From a virus: a stretch of DNA of 36,714 nt. Position 1 is the stretch's first letter, and every line of letters begins with the position of its first letter. Made by a program: the position numbers and the translations under genes. A model generated the notes under the pieces. The model worked only from the letters and a program-made list of their open reading frames with translations. It was not told the origin of the DNA and ran no database searches. Below, one piece after another: positions 1,501 through 36,420 of this stretch. Where the stretch lies: IMG/VR virus record IMGVR_UViG_3300045999_001064, positions 1 to 36,714 of that record. One strand, written 5' to 3'.

Positions 1501-1683
1501 ATGTTAGTTGACTCAGTAAAGATAATAGGCACGATGGATGGAGATGAAGCGGTTGTTATTAACATGACCTGCTTATGCCCCTTAGAAACCATTGAAAAGA
1601 TTTGCTCCACTATTCGTGGGGATCTAAATGATATGGGTAGTAGTATTGATTTTAAAATCTCTTTTAAAGATATGGATATTTAA
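1501..1683 (+). CDS. Hypothetical protein (60 aa)
   Basis: ATG 1501 is preceded by AAAGGA at 1489-1494, a well-spaced ribosome site. The product is small, acidic and cysteine-containing (NMTCLCPLE) and ends KISFKDMDI. I recognise no family, membrane segment or motif. The stop overlaps the ADP-ribosylglycohydrolase start by 1 nt (TAATG), so the two are probably translationally coupled. Confidence 0.65.
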   Translation: MLVDSVKIIGTMDGDEAVVINMTCLCPLETIEKICSTIRGDLNDMGSSIDFKISFKDMDI

Positions 1684-2519
1684 TGCATCAAGACAAAGCA
1701 ATTGGTATGTTCATGGGTCTGTTCATTGGAGATGCACTGGGTGCTCCGTTGGAATTCATGAGGCCACATGAGATGACACACACACTGACAGAGATGGAAG
1801 GTGGTGGTATGCACAACACTGCCGAAGGTGAATGGACAGACGATGGTGCTATGGCTGTGGCTATTGCTGATGCATACATAGGCAGCAAACGCTTTGATCC
1901 TGAGGCCATCGCCATGAACTTCAAGATGTGGAAGAAGACAGGTCACTTTGGTACTAGAGATTATGTCTTTGACATTGGTAGGACATGCAGTGAAGCCATC
2001 CACAGGATGGATGTTACAAACCCCTATGCAGGTAGCAGTAGCTACAATGCCAGTGGTAATGGCTCCATCATGAGGCTTGCTCCCATTGTGCTTGCCAATC
2101 ACAACAACATGCCTAATGCTGTGGCGCAGAGCATTGCTGTGTCATTGATGACACATGGCAATGCAGACACTGTGCATTACATTGCAGGGTTTGTGGCTGA
2201 GCTTATGTCAGGCAAGGCAGAAGACAGCTTCGACTATCTCAAGCACTATCGTGATCCGTATGCTACAGGAACCATCATGTATACATACAACATGGCATGG
2301 GAATGTGTGAGAGAAACTTCTACCTTCGAGAAAGCCTTGGTGAAGGCAGTGAACATGGGCTTTGACGCTGACACTTTAGGTGCTGTCACTGGTATGTTAG
2401 CAGGGCGTAAGTATGGCTTAAAAGGTATACCAAATAGATGGCTAGAGAAGCTAGTGAAGAAGGATGAGTTGATTGACATGGCTGAGAAACTATATGCACT
2501 GGGAGGTGATGATGAATGA
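1683..2519 (+). CDS. ADP-ribosylglycohydrolase (DraG/ARH-like)
   Basis: This family removes ADP-ribose from modified proteins or hydrolyses related ADP-ribose compounds using two metal ions. The product has all the family signatures in order: GDALGAPLE (16-24), the metal-binding WTDDGAM with T52, D53 and D54, NGSIMR (126-131), and the second metal site FDADTLGAVTG with D228, D230 and T231. At 278 residues it is close to the usual length, so it is probably active. It starts 1 nt inside the previous gene and shares its end with the next. Its place in the early operon suggests action on host or virion-delivered ADP-ribosylation. The substrate cannot be told from sequence. Confidence 0.9.
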   Translation: MHQDKAIGMFMGLFIGDALGAPLEFMRPHEMTHTLTEMEGGGMHNTAEGEWTDDGAMAVAIADAYIGSKRFDPEAIAMNFKMWKKTGHFGTRDYVFDIGRTCSEAIHRMDVTNPYAGSSSYNASGNGSIMRLAPIVLANHNNMPNAVAQSIAVSLMTHGNADTVHYIAGFVAELMSGKAEDSFDYLKHYRDPYATGTIMYTYNMAWECVRETSTFEKALVKAVNMGFDADTLGAVTGMLAGRKYGLKGIPNRWLEKLVKKDELIDMAEKLYALGGDDE

Positions 2520-23258: not shown

Positions 23259-23460
23259 TCATCAACTCCTCTTTTTGTTTTCTAATGGCTGCAATGTAGC
23301 TAGACACTTTAGCAAATACATCTGAGGATGTCTTATCTTCTTTGCTTGGCTTATCAAGAGCTTTTGATAACAGTCCTTTGCCTGTGTCTTTCTTGGGTGT
23401 AGACAGTTTGGCATTAGCCATACCATCAACCTTCTCATAGTATTTTTTAAAGTTCTTCAT
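23245..23460 (-). CDS. Small basic protein in virion cluster (71 aa)
   Basis: The product (MKNFKKYYEKVDGM...) is lysine-rich and hydrophilic, with a short helical C-terminus. No domain is recognised. It overlaps the 920-residue gene by 4 nt and the 157-residue gene by 14 nt, so it is probably co-translated with virion proteins. It could be a small virion or scaffolding component, but the sequence does not show which. Confidence 0.6.
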   Translation of the reverse strand: MKNFKKYYEKVDGMANAKLSTPKKDTGKGLLSKALDKPSKEDKTSSDVFAKVSSYIAAIRKQKEELMNGKS

Positions 23461-26219
23461 ATTTTAATTGTTCCACCTGTTGCAACACCAACTAATACCC
23501 TACCTACAAATGTACCCAAGGCTGTTGAGCTATCACCATCTGCTTTAATATTAGCACCAGCAATTGCAGCAGCAGCTCTTATCTCCTCACCAGCAAGTGT
23601 GGTTGCTCTATTGGCATCATTCTCAGCAGACTGCCAAGCATGTGTCACACTGTCACGATATAGCTGTATCTCATTATTATATTCTGTCATGGTCATTTGC
23701 TGTGTGAGCTGGGCATTAGCTAAGTTGGCAGCATTGGTAGCTGCTGTGTTAGCTGTAGATATTTCTCTCTGCCATTGAGCATTAGACTGATCAATAACAA
23801 GTCTCTGCTGTGCATTAAACTGTTCTCTCTGGTTCTCCACTTCAGCATTAAACTTAGACACAGAGTTGGCCTGATCAGTATTAAACTGAGTCATGGCATT
23901 ATTCTGTGCTGCATTAAACTGACTTACTTGTGAAGAGAGAGTGGCAAAGAACTGGTTGGTTTGATTAACACTGCTAGCATTAAATTGCTTAGCAGCATTT
24001 TCAGCAGCAGCATCACTTAACAAAGCTTGTGCTGTTAGCTGTGTTTTAAGAACAGTGGTTTGCTGTTCATAAGACATATTAGTTAAATCAATTTGCAAAG
24101 CAGCTTGAGCATTATTAACAGCAGCCTGTTGTCTGTTATTTAAATTGGCTGTTTCTAGTGTGGCTGTCTGTGCAAGCTCAGCCATGAAAGCAGCTTGTCT
24201 GCTGTTAAGGTTTGCTAAGTCAACAGACTGAGCAAGCCTAGCATTCTCTAAAGCCACTTGTTGCTTAGCATTAAAGTTCATGTTAGCAATGTCTGAAACT
24301 TTAGAAGCATTGATAACACGGGTTTGGAAATTCTGATCAAACTCTTGACCTAAGAATGTAGCTCTTTGTTGTGCTGTGAGTACAGCTATCTGTTGTCTGT
24401 TAGACAGGTTCTGTGTAGCCATCTGTTGAAACACAGCAGCATCAGCAGAAGCAATTGGTAAAGCTTTCTCTAAAGCAGCTTGCACCATAGCAGCACCAGC
24501 AATACTAGAAGCACCAATACCTCTAGCACCCATCTCTGCTGTAATAGCTCTTAATGCACCAGCAGCCCAAGGAGGAGGATTCTTAGCATCAAAATCTTTA
24601 GTGAGCTTAGTGAGCTGTCCCTGTACAGTCATCTCTTCAGTGACAACTCCTTCAGCAGCTTTAGCCTTAGTAAGTTCTGTCTCCACCTTAGCCATATCTA
24701 CAGCAGAGCCAGCTACTGTCTCACCTGCTTGTAGTGTTCTATCTGCAGGAGCCTGTACAGTTTGAGCTTTGTCAATTTGTGCTGCTCTATCTGCAGCATC
24801 TTTTAAAGCTGTGGCTTCAGTTTGTGCTGCTGTCACTGTAGCAGCTTCAGACAACACTCCTTCAGTAGCTTTGACATCCTTTAACATATCTGAGATGCCA
24901 GTACCAGCAGTTGATGCTGTTACCTGTTCTGCTGTTAATGTTGTAGGAGCAGTGGCTAAAGATGTTGCTACTGCTGGAGCACCTGTAATTGTTTTAGCTG
25001 CTCCTGCCCTTTCTTCTGTACCAATTTTTTGACTATCAGTAGAAGTAATTAAACTAGCTTCAACTTGAGAAGCGGCCCCGGCTTGTGGTTTTCCTGTAGC
25101 TGAATAAGTAACATCACCAGAAGTTAATATGGCTTTATCTCTAGCTGCCTTAGCTGCAGCACCATCTGCTTCAGCTTTAGTTTTAGCAGCTAATGCTGCT
25201 TGTCTTTGTGCCTCTGTCTTTGCTGCTGCTAAGTCTGCATTAGCTTTAGCTAACGCATCTGCTGCTGCTTTAGTGGCTGCGTCTGCTGCTGCTTTATCTG
25301 CTGCTACCTTTGCTGCTTTGTCTGCTACTGCTTTAGCTTCTGCTGCTGCTTTGTCTGCATCTACCTTTGGTTGCAACTCTGTCTTCAGATTTGTGGAAGC
25401 TGTTATTAAATCTTTATCAGCTACAGCATTAAACCTTTTAGTAATGTCAGCAGCAGTGGCTGCATTACCGCCAATGGCTGTAGCAAACTCTTCAGGACTA
25501 ACCTTAAACTCAACCATGTAAGCTTTAATCTGAGCGTCTGTGAGTCCCTTAGTGCCATTCTCTTTCCACCAATCAGCAATGTTTTGCGTTGTGGCTTTAT
25601 ATCCAAAATTGGAAGTAGGTGGTGTTGTTCCTCCAGCAGGTGGTGTTGTTCCTCCAGCAGGTGGTGTTGTTCCTCCAGCAGGTGGTGTTGTTCCTCCAGC
25701 AGGTGGTGTCACCACAGTTGTAGGAGGAGTAACTGGTGTAGAAGGCGTTGTTATAGTTTTTGCTCCGCTTGAAGCAGGAGGAGCTATTACATCTTCAGGT
25801 GGTGTTACAACATCAGGCGGTGTAGGTGTAGCTGGTATTGAAGGAGCCTCTTCATAGCGTTTAGCTATGTCAGCAGCAGTGGCCTCATTAGCACCAATAG
25901 CTGTAGCAAACTGGTCTGGAGATACTTTATAAGTCTCCATTGCTGTTTTAATTTCAGCATCAGACAGTTTCTGATTCTTAGGGTCAGCCCACCAAGCAGC
26001 TATCTGTTCATTTGTAACAGCACCACCAGCTTGAAACCTACGCTTCATCTTAACCAATCCACCCTTAGCCATACGCTCAGCAAACTTACCAGAGATGGCA
26101 GCATACTTAGCTTCTAAAGCAGGAGAAGAAGCAATGAACTCATCAAAGCCCTGCATAGGTCCGTCATAGCCTAGCTTTCTAGCTACAACTGCTTTTTGTT
26201 GTGATGTAAAATCTCTCAT
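23457..26219 (-). CDS. Long Ala-rich virion protein with duplicated domain (920 aa)
   Basis: The N-terminus has a 60-residue segment ending MAKGGLVKMKRRFQAGG. Two copies of an about 57-residue domain follow, at about 68-124 and 208-266, each with a WW pair, then KVSP..FATAIG and ATAADI..R. A Pro-Thr linker lies between them, with four repeats of TPPAGGT (173-200). An Ala-Lys coiled region and a Gln-Asn-rich coil with repeated QFNA and NRQQA motifs come next. The C-terminus is glycine-rich (GRVLVGVATGGTIKI) and may insert in a membrane. I recall similar Gln-Asn coils in marine phage internal proteins. A fibrous or ejection role is inferred. Confidence 0.7.
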   Translation of the reverse strand: MRDFTSQQKAVVARKLGYDGPMQGFDEFIASSPALEAKYAAISGKFAERMAKGGLVKMKRRFQAGGAVTNEQIAAWWADPKNQKLSDAEIKTAMETYKVSPDQFATAIGANEATAADIAKRYEEAPSIPATPTPPDVVTPPEDVIAPPASSGAKTITTPSTPVTPPTTVVTPPAGGTTPPAGGTTPPAGGTTPPAGGTTPPTSNFGYKATTQNIADWWKENGTKGLTDAQIKAYMVEFKVSPEEFATAIGGNAATAADITKRFNAVADKDLITASTNLKTELQPKVDADKAAAEAKAVADKAAKVAADKAAADAATKAAADALAKANADLAAAKTEAQRQAALAAKTKAEADGAAAKAARDKAILTSGDVTYSATGKPQAGAASQVEASLITSTDSQKIGTEERAGAAKTITGAPAVATSLATAPTTLTAEQVTASTAGTGISDMLKDVKATEGVLSEAATVTAAQTEATALKDAADRAAQIDKAQTVQAPADRTLQAGETVAGSAVDMAKVETELTKAKAAEGVVTEEMTVQGQLTKLTKDFDAKNPPPWAAGALRAITAEMGARGIGASSIAGAAMVQAALEKALPIASADAAVFQQMATQNLSNRQQIAVLTAQQRATFLGQEFDQNFQTRVINASKVSDIANMNFNAKQQVALENARLAQSVDLANLNSRQAAFMAELAQTATLETANLNNRQQAAVNNAQAALQIDLTNMSYEQQTTVLKTQLTAQALLSDAAAENAAKQFNASSVNQTNQFFATLSSQVSQFNAAQNNAMTQFNTDQANSVSKFNAEVENQREQFNAQQRLVIDQSNAQWQREISTANTAATNAANLANAQLTQQMTMTEYNNEIQLYRDSVTHAWQSAENDANRATTLAGEEIRAAAAIAGANIKADGDSSTALGTFVGRVLVGVATGGTIKI
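25618..25701 (-). repeat. Four exact 21-bp tandem repeats
   Basis: A 21-bp unit beginning GGTGGTGTTGTTCC on the + strand occurs four times without a mismatch, followed by a partial fifth. Each unit encodes seven residues of the Thr-Pro-Pro-Ala-Gly-Gly linker. Identity at DNA level suggests recent slippage, so copy number may vary between strains. Confidence 0.9.
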
Positions 26220-31953: not shown

Positions 31954-33933
31954 TTATCTTCTATCATGTGTGGCATACTCTAGCGTTGCAGCGTCCAGAG
32001 AAAACGGAGGGTCTTGGCTATCTGAAATAAACTGTAAAGATACAGAGAATCCAGAGCCTACCACTTGTGTTTGAAATTGCTTCTTCAACTTATCACCATA
32101 AACAGTTGTGCCATACTTAGCAGCACTAGTGCCGTAAAAGCCAACACTACCTGCACTATTAGACAGCACAATGGTTGAGGGCTGAATAGATCCTTGATCA
32201 TCAAAATCCAGCTTTAAATTCACTGATGTTGTAACAGATCCTTGGGGATCTGTATAGAGAAAAAGCTTATAAAAAGTCTTCCTCACCCTAAAATCATTAA
32301 TTGGTACATAAGGGGTGGCAAAGGAAGCAATAATGTTTGTACCATCAAAGCTATTACCCTGCTCCATCTCATACACAAATCCATCATTATTAGCAAACAC
32401 AATGGTTTCTGTTTGGTTTTGGTAGTCTCCATCAGCTACATAGCATTTAAACCCCACCAGTTCAGCCCATGCTATATTACCAGTGGACTCACCAGTCATC
32501 TGTGTTCCTAAAATACCCTTGGCATTAGATGCTGTAATATTAGCATTATACCCAAACAATCTATATTGTGACTTCTGTTTAATAACACAACTAGCAAATG
32601 TTGAATTTGCACTAATCAAAGAAGTCATCTCAGTTTGGACAGATTTAGACACCACCCCTAAGCTGAAGTCACCAATACGATCTGTAGCTCCCAATAGTCT
32701 TAAACCCTCTGGACCTAAGAACATAACATCACCACCAACTTCTTGTATGGTGTCTGAAGCTACGCACCCAACATTCTTAGTGATGGGCTGTAGAGAGAAG
32801 TCTTGTATGGTGGTTCCAGACAATTGACTAATAGTTTTCTCTGTAAAGATTATTAGTGTTTCTCTAAATACAATGAGGCCAGTGATGATGCCACCAACAT
32901 TAATAATTCCAGAGCCAGTAGCAGCATTAAAGTCTGTGTCTGTATATGGAGCAGTGAATATAATGTTTTCATTCTTAGCAAAGAACAACTGGTTCTTATG
33001 GCTAACAACAAACTGAGCACCTAATATATCTGTTGTCTTATCTGATATGACATTAAAATTTGTACCATCATAAATGAATGGATAGTTGGTACTGTCTACA
33101 CCAACAACTTTCTCAGTGCTACTAAGTCTATACTTGCTAAGGCGTGTCTTATAGTTGCTAGAGCGATTGCAAGATAGCCAAGTGATGGCAGCATTATCAG
33201 CAGGACTAGAAGCCAGTGCTGGATTTATAGAGACAGTGGCTGCAGTGGTAGTAACTGTGGGGATAGCCAACACTGTATACACCTTCTCAACACCAGCAAT
33301 ACTGAAGGTATCGCCAACCTGAGGAGCTTTAGTTAAGCCATCAATAGCCAGAGTGCTACCTGTCTGAGCACCACCATTAACAAGCACTGTGCCGTAATAG
33401 GGCTTACTTATCTTAGTGTAGCCAGCACCAGTGGTTGTATAAACATCACTATTTCTAACAGCTACAACACTGTTGTTCCAAGCAGAGATGCCACTAATAA
33501 TGCCTGTATGAGATGTAAAAGTTACAGCAGCTTTATCTGCTGGACTAGAAGCTAAAGACGTTGTGAGCGTCACTGTAGCCACTTTAAATGTAGAACTGTA
33601 TGAAACACCAGCAGCAGCAATGGTGTATGTGCCTGTCACACCAGCAATGGTAAACTTATCTCCAGCAATCGGGGTAGTGAGGATGTTTGAGATTATTAAG
33701 GTAGTACCAGTCTGACCACTACCCTGCACTTTAGGCTCACCGTATGCAGGTACAAAAGAACTACTGTATTTATTGTAGCCTTCAATACGCATGTAGCCAC
33801 CGTCCACAGAAGGCTCAAAGTTCTTCATGAGTCTTCCACTGCCGGGTGCTTGTGTGCCGTGCTGAAGCGGTGATAGATTGGAAATCAATCCACCACGGAA
33901 TTCAAAGGGATACGTCTGCCATCCATCAGCCAT
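31954..33933 (-). CDS. Tail nozzle protein (T7 gp12-like, 659 aa)
   Basis: The protein would form the lower part of the short tail. The N-terminus FRGGLISNLSPLQHGTQAPG and GRLMKNFEPSVDGGYMRIEG is the pattern of this family as I recall it. A beta-rich body with KNQLFFAKNENIIF and LGPEGLRLLGATDRIGDFSL follows. Two about 70-residue inserts (about 33505-33725 and 33170-33385) share a QTG(T/S)TL...GD.F.IAGV...YT pattern and an ASSPAD(K/N)AA end. The protein follows the tail tube gene by a 1-nt overlap, as expected. Confidence 0.8.
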   Translation of the reverse strand: MADGWQTYPFEFRGGLISNLSPLQHGTQAPGSGRLMKNFEPSVDGGYMRIEGYNKYSSSFVPAYGEPKVQGSGQTGTTLIISNILTTPIAGDKFTIAGVTGTYTIAAAGVSYSSTFKVATVTLTTSLASSPADKAAVTFTSHTGIISGISAWNNSVVAVRNSDVYTTTGAGYTKISKPYYGTVLVNGGAQTGSTLAIDGLTKAPQVGDTFSIAGVEKVYTVLAIPTVTTTAATVSINPALASSPADNAAITWLSCNRSSNYKTRLSKYRLSSTEKVVGVDSTNYPFIYDGTNFNVISDKTTDILGAQFVVSHKNQLFFAKNENIIFTAPYTDTDFNAATGSGIINVGGIITGLIVFRETLIIFTEKTISQLSGTTIQDFSLQPITKNVGCVASDTIQEVGGDVMFLGPEGLRLLGATDRIGDFSLGVVSKSVQTEMTSLISANSTFASCVIKQKSQYRLFGYNANITASNAKGILGTQMTGESTGNIAWAELVGFKCYVADGDYQNQTETIVFANNDGFVYEMEQGNSFDGTNIIASFATPYVPINDFRVRKTFYKLFLYTDPQGSVTTSVNLKLDFDDQGSIQPSTIVLSNSAGSVGFYGTSAAKYGTTVYGDKLKKQFQTQVVGSGFSVSLQFISDSQDPPFSLDAATLEYATHDRR

Positions 33934-34658
33934 TATTTAACCCTGTCACCAAAGCCTGAAAAAGCAGTTGATTGTGTAATTGCTGTTGACTGCATATAAA
34001 CATACTTATTGATAAGAAGAATACGCATCTTCTTTATGCCTTCTTCAAACTTACCTTTAGCTATATTAGCTGCCTGTTCATTGCTTCTAAACATGTATGC
34101 GTGATACATAGCACCATCTAAAATAACTTGTTTAAATCTTTCTGGAATAGATGGAACATCTGTAGAGCTAGAAAGATCTACAGGAATTCTGTAATATTCA
34201 TAGACAATTGAATATGCTTGATTAGGAGCAGGGACAACGCCCCACTCCAAACTAGGAGCATGGAATACATAAGTAGGAACATCTTGCTTGCTTGTATCAG
34301 CAGAATATTCCTGATCTACAAACCTTTGAAGATAGTCATCATAAGTCATGACACCAAGCCTAACAGTGTCGTTAGACAAAGTAGCACTTTCTTTTACACG
34401 GAAGGTGTCAAAGTCAATAGTGCTAGCGTCAGAAGGAAAAGCATATCTTGTTCCACCAACTGTCAAAGTTTCTTCAGCAAGCACATGATTGAAAGGCCAC
34501 TCATAATGGGTGTGGTTGATATCTCTAATAGCTGAATTTACAGCATCTTTAATATGAGCGTAGAAACCAGTGGCTGTAGAGAAGTTTGAAGAAGTAAGCT
34601 CAACTTCGTTAAGCCTTCTATTAACTTCATTGGTAAGTCCAATATAGTTGTATGCCAT
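33933..34658 (-). CDS. Tail adaptor/tubular protein A (T7 gp11-like, 241 aa)
   Basis: The protein would join the portal to the tail nozzle. The N-terminus MAYNYIGLTNEVNRRLNEVEL and the helix with IKDAVNSAIRDINHTHYEWPF are typical of short-tail gatekeeper proteins. A strand region with GTRYAFPSDASTIDFDTFRV follows, and the C-terminal helix has FEEGIKKMRILLINKYVYM. The length is near that of T7 gp11 (196 aa), a little longer. Its place upstream of the nozzle gene supports the call. Confidence 0.8.
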   Translation of the reverse strand: MAYNYIGLTNEVNRRLNEVELTSSNFSTATGFYAHIKDAVNSAIRDINHTHYEWPFNHVLAEETLTVGGTRYAFPSDASTIDFDTFRVKESATLSNDTVRLGVMTYDDYLQRFVDQEYSADTSKQDVPTYVFHAPSLEWGVVPAPNQAYSIVYEYYRIPVDLSSSTDVPSIPERFKQVILDGAMYHAYMFRSNEQAANIAKGKFEEGIKKMRILLINKYVYMQSTAITQSTAFSGFGDRVK

Positions 34659-34660
34659 TC

Positions 34661-34978
34661 TTATTGTTCCTTAACACGCAAACGAGTTACTCGCTCAGCT
34701 ACATTACCACTATTGTCTGTAATTCTACAATAGAACTTGTATTCAGTATTGTTAGTGCCTAGCCCAAGATTGATGGTTGTAACACTACCAGAAATAGTCT
34801 GAGATACATTCTGAATGCCATTAACAGTGTTACCTCCTGTAATGGCTGTCTTTACACCAGAGCTATTATCAACAAACCAAGAACAGCTACTAATAGTTGC
34901 TGTGTCTAGAAACCTAGACCAGTCAACACTGTAGTCTAAGATTTCATCAGGATCTTTGTTAGGCCATCGAAAAGACAT
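34661..34978 (-). CDS. Ig-like virion or fibre-tail adaptor protein (105 aa)
   Basis: The product has WPNKDPDEILDYSVDWSRFL at the N-terminus, then a strand-rich body (TISSCSWFVDNSSG, TINLGLGTNNTEYKFYCRIT) and a basic end, RVTRLRVKEQ. The DPDE..DYSVDW start and Ig-like strands match small virion proteins I recall as phage fibre-tail adaptors. There is no signal peptide. It ends 2 nt before the tail adaptor gene. Confidence 0.7.
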   Translation of the reverse strand: MSFRWPNKDPDEILDYSVDWSRFLDTATISSCSWFVDNSSGVKTAITGGNTVNGIQNVSQTISGSVTTINLGLGTNNTEYKFYCRITDNSGNVAERVTRLRVKEQ

Positions 34979-34988
34979 TATTAAACTC

Positions 34989-35963
34989 CTACTCCACTAA
35001 AGCACTTCTATCAGCAGTAGTGGACTTTCTATCTGTATATACTTGTCTAGGCTCTGTAGCCACATAAGATGTTCTGTCATACCCTGTAGAATGTCTATCT
35101 ACATAAACTCTACGAGACTCAGCTAACACCAACATTGTTCTTTCTTTTGCTGTGCTATGTCTTTCAACATACACAGTGCGTCTTCTATCATAAAGATGTG
35201 CTACAGCAGCATAATCAAATACAGATACTGTAACAGCTACTGTACCTACATCTCCGGTAGCAGACAACCCATCAAAGGTTGGTCTAGCATTATTAGCTGC
35301 AACAACATCACCAAGACTTGTTGTAGCTTCTACACCTGTTATAGCTACTAAGGCTTTAGCCAGTACAGAGACAATCCCTAAACTAGCTACACCCTCAACA
35401 CCAACTAAACTTGTTGTGGCCTTTGCCACTATAACAACACTACCTAGTGCTGTTGTACCTACAACACCATCTACAGGAATTCTATTGATAGATCTAACAT
35501 CAACAGTGCCTATAGCTGCTGTAGCCTCTACACCAGATAGTAATGTAACTGCCTTAGCAATTACAGAAATACTACCAACACTACCAGCAGCAGATACTCC
35601 TACTGCTTCTGTTATTGCTTTAGCAACTACAGATACACTACCAACATTTCCTGTAGCAGCTAAGCCAGTAGGTGATACTGTACAACCTAAGCTAAAAGAT
35701 ACAGCATCATTAACAAAGCCAGTAGCAGATACACCAACTAAACTAGTTACTGCTACGCCTACTACACCTACATCACCAGTAGCTCCAACAGCTACTAAGC
35801 TAACAACTACATGGTTAGCATCACCGCTAATAACAACACCACTATCTGATGTTGCAACCCCTTGCACCCCATCTGGAACATATGCAACATTGCTTTTACC
35901 ATAACGGGATGTCCCGTATATACCAATGCTATATATTGCCCCCGACCGGGTTGTCGTAGCCAT
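34989..35963 (-). CDS. Repetitive virion protein with two 22-residue repeat types (324 aa)
   Basis: The N-terminus (SGAIYSIGIYGTSRYGKSNV) is a small attachment-like region. The central part has about nine copies of a 22-residue beta repeat with a G(V/L)xA(T/A)GxVG core, likely a solenoid or fibre shaft. The C-terminus has three copies of another 22-residue unit with the pattern R.VY.(D/E)R.ST...R, rich in basic and acidic residues. I recognise no named family. Its place between the head-side and tail genes suggests a virion fibre or decoration protein. Confidence 0.65.
   Translation of the reverse strand: MATTTRSGAIYSIGIYGTSRYGKSNVAYVPDGVQGVATSDSGVVISGDANHVVVSLVAVGATGDVGVVGVAVTSLVGVSATGFVNDAVSFSLGCTVSPTGLAATGNVGSVSVVAKAITEAVGVSAAGSVGSISVIAKAVTLLSGVEATAAIGTVDVRSINRIPVDGVVGTTALGSVVIVAKATTSLVGVEGVASLGIVSVLAKALVAITGVEATTSLGDVVAANNARPTFDGLSATGDVGTVAVTVSVFDYAAVAHLYDRRRTVYVERHSTAKERTMLVLAESRRVYVDRHSTGYDRTSYVATEPRQVYTDRKSTTADRSALVE
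34992..35180 (-). repeat. Three 66-bp coding repeats (C-terminal charged type)
   Basis: Three successive 22-codon units encode the VY.(D/E)R.ST...R pattern at the C-terminus of the 324-residue protein; the last is shortened to 19 residues. Copies differ at several bases, so this is an old duplication. Confidence 0.75.
35200..35830 (-). repeat. Degenerate 66-bp coding repeats (beta-solenoid type)
   Basis: About nine degenerate 22-codon units encode the GVxATGxVG core and the VVAKA-type strands in the 324-residue protein. Unit boundaries are approximate because spacing varies in the N-terminal copies. Confidence 0.65.
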
Positions 35964-35976
35964 GACCTACGACTCC

Positions 35977-36420
35977 TTATGCGATACGAACAATAGCGTT
36001 GCTTGCGTCTGCTGCTGGGAATTGAATTACAAAGTCACCATTAGTTGATGTCTTATCACCACCAAAAGAAATGACAGCTACAGCATTAGTTGTGGCTGAG
36101 CCACCATCTGTAGTGGTATTATAAATTAAAGCACCAGCAGCAGTGATGGTTGCATTAGCAAAGGTAGCATCAGCAAAGTCAATGAATGCTGTAGTACCAC
36201 TGCTAGTGGGATCAATGTTTGTTAGAGTAGCACCACCAGCAGTGTAACCAGTGCCAACAACTTCGTTAGAGGTTGTGTAATCTGTGGTTGAAGCACCAAG
36301 GTTGGCAGAAGATGTGTACAAAGCAATCTTAAATGTATGACCGCTTGTAACATTAAAGTCATGTTTACGCTCAAGCAATTCTTTTTTAAAGCTTGTGCAA
36401 AGGGCAGAAGTAATAGCCAT
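35977..36420 (-). CDS. Putative head or virion structural protein (147 aa)
   Basis: The product begins MAITSALCTSFKKELLERKH and continues as a Thr-Gly-Ala-rich beta protein (HTFKIALYTSSANLGAST and VVGTGYTAGGATLTN). The FKKELL...HDF...FKIALYTSSA pattern is one I recall in head-proximal virion proteins of many tailed phages. AGAGG lies just upstream as a ribosome site. Its exact site in the virion is unknown. Confidence 0.7.
   Translation of the reverse strand: MAITSALCTSFKKELLERKHDFNVTSGHTFKIALYTSSANLGASTTDYTTSNEVVGTGYTAGGATLTNIDPTSSGTTAFIDFADATFANATITAAGALIYNTTTDGGSATTNAVAVISFGGDKTSTNGDFVIQFPAADASNAIVRIA

Follow-up and report, generated by a model that had tools for sequence, protein, structure and literature searches.

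The window analysed here is the complete IMG/VR record IMGVR_UViG_3300045999_001064 with a length of 36,714 nt. On its minus strand, a gene at positions 34992-35963 (stop codon at 34989-34991) encodes a protein of 324 aa with two different repeats. The gene order on this strand is a phrog_644-like gene of unknown function (35977-36420; assigned by PHROGs and also present in the Roseobacter phages CRP-345 and CRP-603), located upstream, the two-repeat gene, a gene for a Gp77-like fibre-tail adaptor of 105 aa (34661-34978), an SU10-type adaptor gene as the downstream neighbour of the latter (33933-34658; assigned by Pfam), the nozzle gene and a tail fibre gene. The product of the nozzle/stabilisation gene showed 57.4% identity to its counterpart in CRP-345 over the whole length and 34.9% identity to that of HMO-2011, with 62% covered. 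By these similarities the source virus is classified as an HMO-2011-type podovirus with a homologous tail module. HMO-2011-type phages are abundant in the sea.

The Gp77-like protein matched the Pfam family PF23148, which bears the name podophage GP4 fibre-tail adaptor, with an E-value of 1.7e-14. A profile built from eight relatives matched PDB chain 8jou_D, a 'virion-associated phage protein', with an E-value of 7.3e-8. A paper that cites entry 8JOU refers to it as a GP4 structure. A homologue of the adaptor for GP4-type fibre attachment is, hence, encoded in the tail module. The first-pass annotation had regarded the two-repeat protein as a virion protein, and the location of its gene in the tail module, beside the gene for a homologue of a fibre-tail adaptor of known structure, is in agreement with this.

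The two-repeat protein starts with an N-terminal cap (residues 1-32; 35868-35963, minus strand like all other parts of the gene), followed by the hydrophobic repeat of the putative solenoid (residues 33-248; 35220-35867), in which a register of 22 residues is strictly kept from about residue 99 onwards. A junction with the sequence FDYAAVAHLYDRRR (residues 249-262; 35178-35219) leads to the charged R.VY..R.ST module (residues 263-324; 34992-35177). Self-comparison at lags of 5-59 residues resulted in a peak at lag 22 for both parts. For residues 45-249 the z-score was 8.8, with 30% identity versus 12% for shuffled sequences, which corresponds to a regular repeat of about one coil as in a beta-solenoid. 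For residues 250-324 the z-score was 8.5, with 41% identity versus 8%. Neither peak was matched at any of these lags in 500 shuffles. This confirmed the earlier observation that two different 22-residue repeats are present in one protein. The anchors of the solenoid repeat are spaced by 16, 19 and 23 residues and then six times by 22 residues. On reading the sequence, the charged 22-mer turned out to be a composite of 9 and 13 residues, with anchors 13, 9, 13, 9 and 13 residues apart. Tandem Repeats Finder detected no array at the two-repeat gene, indicating that both repeats have diverged at the DNA level.

Comparison of the whole gene to six relatives gave dN/dS values of 0.27-0.45, indicating that it is under purifying selection; the values for the charged part alone (0.28-0.90) are based on few changes and were set aside. 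Mean identity within the close family was highest for the N-terminal 32 residues (82%), followed by the junction with its conserved FDYxAV motif (72%) and the solenoid (56%), and was lowest for the charged part (52%). Attachment of fibres is usually through a conserved N-terminus. A best conserved N-terminal cap would, therefore, be expected for a fibre bound to the virion by its N-terminus, with the solenoid as shaft, the charged repeats as a distal, receptor-contacting tip and no helix shared between the two repeats. The number of charged units differs between lineages, which also fits such a tip. The same conservation pattern counts against docking through the C-terminus.

Two AlphaFold2 models were calculated. 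In model 1 (22 sequences; mean pLDDT 55.7), residues 41-250 formed a beta-solenoid (block-mean pLDDT 58-78), while the charged part remained unpredicted (block-mean pLDDT 28-36). Model 2 (63 sequences; mean pLDDT 54.1, pTM 0.43) had a beta-rich body with a strand layout unlike that of model 1, and residues 261-324 reached a block-mean pLDDT of 38-47. A short helix at the FDYxAV junction (residues 251-258) was common to both models. The proposed solenoid nature of the first repeat was, thus, reproduced at low confidence. Foldseek returned no PDB match below an E-value of 0.001, and the best match among viral models was an uncharacterised phage protein of 324 aa (E 5.7e-5). The structural alignments listed for model 1 were to generic beta-helices as in tailspikes, pectate lyases and secretion domains (e.g., 2odl with Z 16.0 and an rmsd of 3.4 over 223 residues), although identity was about 10% without sequence relation and the model is of low confidence. 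GP4 chains were not among the matches listed, which excludes nothing.

The equal period of 66 bp had been taken to suggest that the coils of both repeats belong to one continuous beta-helix, with a change in surface chemistry. Lag 22 is common to both repeats in the window and in most of the close family, but the axis of the solenoid was continued into the charged part in neither of the two models, and the periods were uncoupled in relatives. The spacing of solenoid anchors was 22 residues in 385 of 520 cases in the window clade (alignment A2, 63 rows). For the marine split clade (61 proteins) it was 20 residues in 281 of 436 cases and 22 in 25, as determined with a score matrix that differed between the two clades. 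The 148 gaps between charged strand anchors in 44 separate small ORFs (mini-ORFs) were mostly of 9 (65), 13 (35) or 15 residues (22), and 4 were of 11 residues. Among 390 gaps in the fused clade, 94 were of 9 and 59 of 13 residues, and the parts of the latter, 6 and 7 residues, occurred 103 and 89 times, respectively. The lineage of L020 and L103 kept lag 22 in the solenoid but had a 72-residue tail with a peak at lag 30 and none at lag 22.

Copy number, which had been suggested for comparison, was also found to vary: whole units were gained or lost in each repeat independently. About 66 residues of the solenoid are missing in three distinct proteins (L025, L029, L101) with a tail of 76 residues, and the tail is shorter by 22 residues in L051, L052, L054 and L055, which have the full solenoid. 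We rejected the common period as a structural requirement, since the solenoid and charged spacings of relatives are uncoupled. The shared period of 66 bp is best explained as a coincidence in a single lineage, and equal repeat periods within a genome are a weak argument for a common fold.

In many relatives the charged part is largely encoded by an ORF of its own, with 36-80 residues, through a TAATG stop-start overlap; this is the state of the marine clade. For CRP-345 and its relatives, the stop of the first ORF is within the charged part (..RRRTVVLPRAA), and the remainder is encoded by a second ORF that starts at the overlapping TAATG. Upstream sequence was available for 43 distinct mini-ORFs, and each of them overlapped the stop of the preceding ORF in a TAATG or TGATG when 20 bases after to 59 bases before each start were scanned; two further ones lacked upstream sequence, and L205 has the fused form. 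A pattern search with T[AG]ATG in all loci gave 55 distinct junctions (54 TAATG, 1 TGATG). As they were picked by this pattern, the generality of the overlap cannot be read from them. A tetramer resembling a Shine-Dalgarno sequence was present at all 55, by a permissive test (any of six tetramers within 16 bases) that is no proof of reinitiation. Termination-reinitiation is the likely mechanism at the split junction. A programmed -1 frameshift fusing the split ORFs was considered and rejected, as none of the 55 junctions had a slippery heptamer of the type X XXY YYZ in its last 24 bases. On a tree of 82 Gp77 proteins (105 columns, many forks open) the split or fused state required at least three changes, e.g., one gain and two losses.

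The mini-ORFs of L113, L116, L118 and L175 carry one or two solenoid repeats directly ahead of their charged strands, so that both repeat types can be interleaved across two genes. This arrangement would also suit one continuous beta-helix. Since a separate chain has to assemble with no covalent link, the charged part is less likely to be merely the next coil turns. Considering also the uncoupled periods and the models, we regard a single helix as improbable and a common stacking of both repeats as disfavoured.

We analysed 9-12 kb around the nozzle gene in the window and in 17 of 37 phage records with a related nozzle gene. Four of these 18 tail regions (window, CRP-345, CRP-603 and CRP-207) carry both the solenoid protein and Gp77, and both are absent from the other 14; the 18 genomes are mutually related and do not represent 18 independent events. 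HTVC103P, one of the 14, showed a borderline Gp77 score (E 0.0096) inside a larger protein. A second sample was collected with Gp77 queries only, and one of its scans kept the best 80 of at least 583 Gp77-encoding stretches. Upstream sequence was available for 68 distinct Gp77 loci, and in 65 of them an ORF with a charged tail lay directly upstream of Gp77. As a control, at least three R.h.h motifs (R-x-hydrophobic-x-hydrophobic) in the last 80 residues were found in 6 of 382 other ORFs of the same loci (stop-to-stop, at least 100 aa). The charged tail of L274 and L299 was seen with longer upstream sequence. The solenoid profile was matched by 51 of the 52 complete upstream ORFs of more than 100 aa (range 167-947 aa), and four further upstream ORFs were mini-ORFs. 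The Gp77-anchored sample alone, thus, fails to single out the charged module. This linkage also bears on the view that the protein is a decoration fibre of the head or of capsid vertices and not a tail appendage. The gene has head genes on one side and tail genes on the other, and the adjoining phrog_644 has no known function, but the linkage is to Gp77, which is named as a fibre-tail adaptor, and a head location appears quite improbable.

The three exceptions among the 68 loci (L221, L222, L223) are distant relatives found with the query from Microcystis phage Mae-JY22 (L219). L223 has Gp77, and a charged tail was not clear. In L221, L222 and Mae-JY22, strands of the type R.L.V..E.R with a spacing of 8-9 residues are present at the end of a protein encoded farther upstream of Gp77. 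The bodies of these proteins had their best repeat lag at 22 (L219 and L221) or 20 (L222), and a search with the solenoid profile gave no match to them. Their N-terminal parts matched the lectin-like family Laminin_G_3 above the cut-off in L222 (E 1e-10) and L221 (E 5e-7), and below it in L219 (E 0.0014). The strands share the pattern of the charged strands in the window and may or may not be homologous to them. Conversely, the solenoid proteins of DSL-LC04 and ct7L0027, which matched the solenoid profile of the window clade with E-values of 1.8e-35 and 5.9e-23, lack the charged tail and end in other repeats, of the DDSQ..TW and WNGSAWV type; no Gp77 match was obtained in the 7.2 and 5.5 kb read from them. 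Three observations, namely other bodies, other solenoid ends and the state as a gene of its own, single out the charged module.

These observations also bear on the charged repeats as a distal tip. The charged module stays beside Gp77 while the N-termini differ (CRP-603, CRP-207 and L205), the N-termini are lectin-like in L221 and L222, and it would be odd for a tip to be produced as a chain of its own. We consider attachment by the N-terminal cap with a charged tip rather unlikely; conservation within the close family favours the tip and linkage to the adaptor gene opposes it.

We put the probability at about 0.5 that the two-repeat protein forms the stalk of a tail appendage that is optional, with the charged module acting together with Gp77 as the docking end. 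The 22-residue repeats would form a beta-solenoid stalk. The C-terminal charged segment, with strands 9 and 11-15 residues apart, would be a different, separable module that works with the adjacent Gp77 adaptor, and most likely serves for assembly or docking, fixing the stalk to the collar of the tail. Translation in some members of the family would stop inside the charged module and restart on the overlapping ATG, yielding the stalk and the remainder as two chains. The protein should accordingly be part of the virion, contact Gp77, point with its C-terminus towards the virion and may have a role in host adsorption; adjacency of the genes does not amount to contact.

It is possible, and we propose it tentatively, that the charged module is a general phage 'beta-strand clip', in which a small separable group of R-x-V-x-V strands pairs with or docks on the Ig-like collar protein Gp77. 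If this is true, stalks and heads could be exchanged with the tail untouched, and an unnamed attachment standard would be in use across very different aquatic phages, with the module fused to different stalks or mostly made as its own chain of 36-80 residues by stop-start coupling. The protein would be an appendage protein linked to Gp77, with a separable charged module that has no name so far. Many aquatic phage proteins that lack annotation are thereby tied to an adaptor of known structure, so that their role becomes testable, and the split gene shows which part can be a separate chain.

The arrangement was compared to known systems. As in GP4 (gp77; PF23148, 8JOU), the genome is that of a podovirus, and the downstream gene encodes a detectable homologue of the adaptor. 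The two-repeat protein itself, by sequence search, matched no PDB chain, those of GP4 included, and no GP4 chain in the PDB was matched by the profile of the family or by that of the mini-ORFs. For the Alishewanella phage LSH1, a report (PMC13243795) describes three genes, gp34-gp35-gp36, that always occur together among LSH1-related genomes and include an Ig-fold protein and a fibril matching the GP4 chain 8JOU_g. In the working model of its authors the order is Ig protein, fibril and payload, and for the payload gp34 AlphaFold gave a doubtful beta-helix with a disordered end (PMC13243795). An optional cassette of genes that always stay together, an Ig-fold protein and a doubtful beta-helix prediction, as given in that report (PMC13243795), resemble the situation described here. 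LSH1 is, however, a siphovirus, and the likeness is one of description. In the Roseobacter phages CRP-345, CRP-603 and CRP-207 the solenoid protein and Gp77 occupy the same slot as in the window. Most of the charged module is a separate 37-aa ORF (gp54) in CRP-345, and the tails of CRP-603 and CRP-207 are of the same kind but shorter.

Searches with the window protein gave no match in PHROGs (E ≤0.01), Pfam (E ≤0.1) or PDB sequences (E ≤10). Marine relatives matched neither Pfam nor PHROGs; a lone PHROGs match was obtained for ct7L0027 (E 0.038). In tblastn against 50,697 phage records the window protein was without match at E 1e-3, with two weak matches at E ≤10, and the charged tail alone as the query gave none. 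PDB searches with the phrog_644-like protein and its Mae-JY22 counterpart yielded no convincing match. Among the papers listed by a literature search, with subscription papers outside its reach, there was none on the two-repeat protein and none on how HMO-2011-type phages hold their fibres. Relatives were plentiful in IMG/VR, with 31 loci in one search and 80 kept of 99 in another.

Some further observations were made in the course of the analysis. In Mae-JY22 the reading frame is open from position 3 (L219:3-1418, 472 codons) and the annotated protein XAI95683.1 starts at 744; together with the weak lectin-like match this suggests that XAI95683.1 may be annotated too short. The W-rich WNGSAWV repeat of ct7L0027 (L038, residues 174-212) is also present in 23 records of Rhodobacter phages, in most cases at about 13.0-13.6 kb, and is perhaps another exchangeable tail type. 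Residues 190-244 of the nozzle protein of the window (31954-33933, minus strand) matched the B domain of the pb9 distal tail protein at the cut-off (27 bits). This protein is labelled 'amidase' by the best PHROG and in one HMO-2011 record, which is perhaps a mislabel. The ORF at 1683-2519 (plus strand), recognised by eye, presumably resembles an ADP-ribosylglycohydrolase. A perfect 21-bp repeat with 4.4 copies is present at 25617-25709 within the ORF 23457-26219 (minus strand), where it encodes a linker of the PPAGGTT type in a protein of 920 aa.
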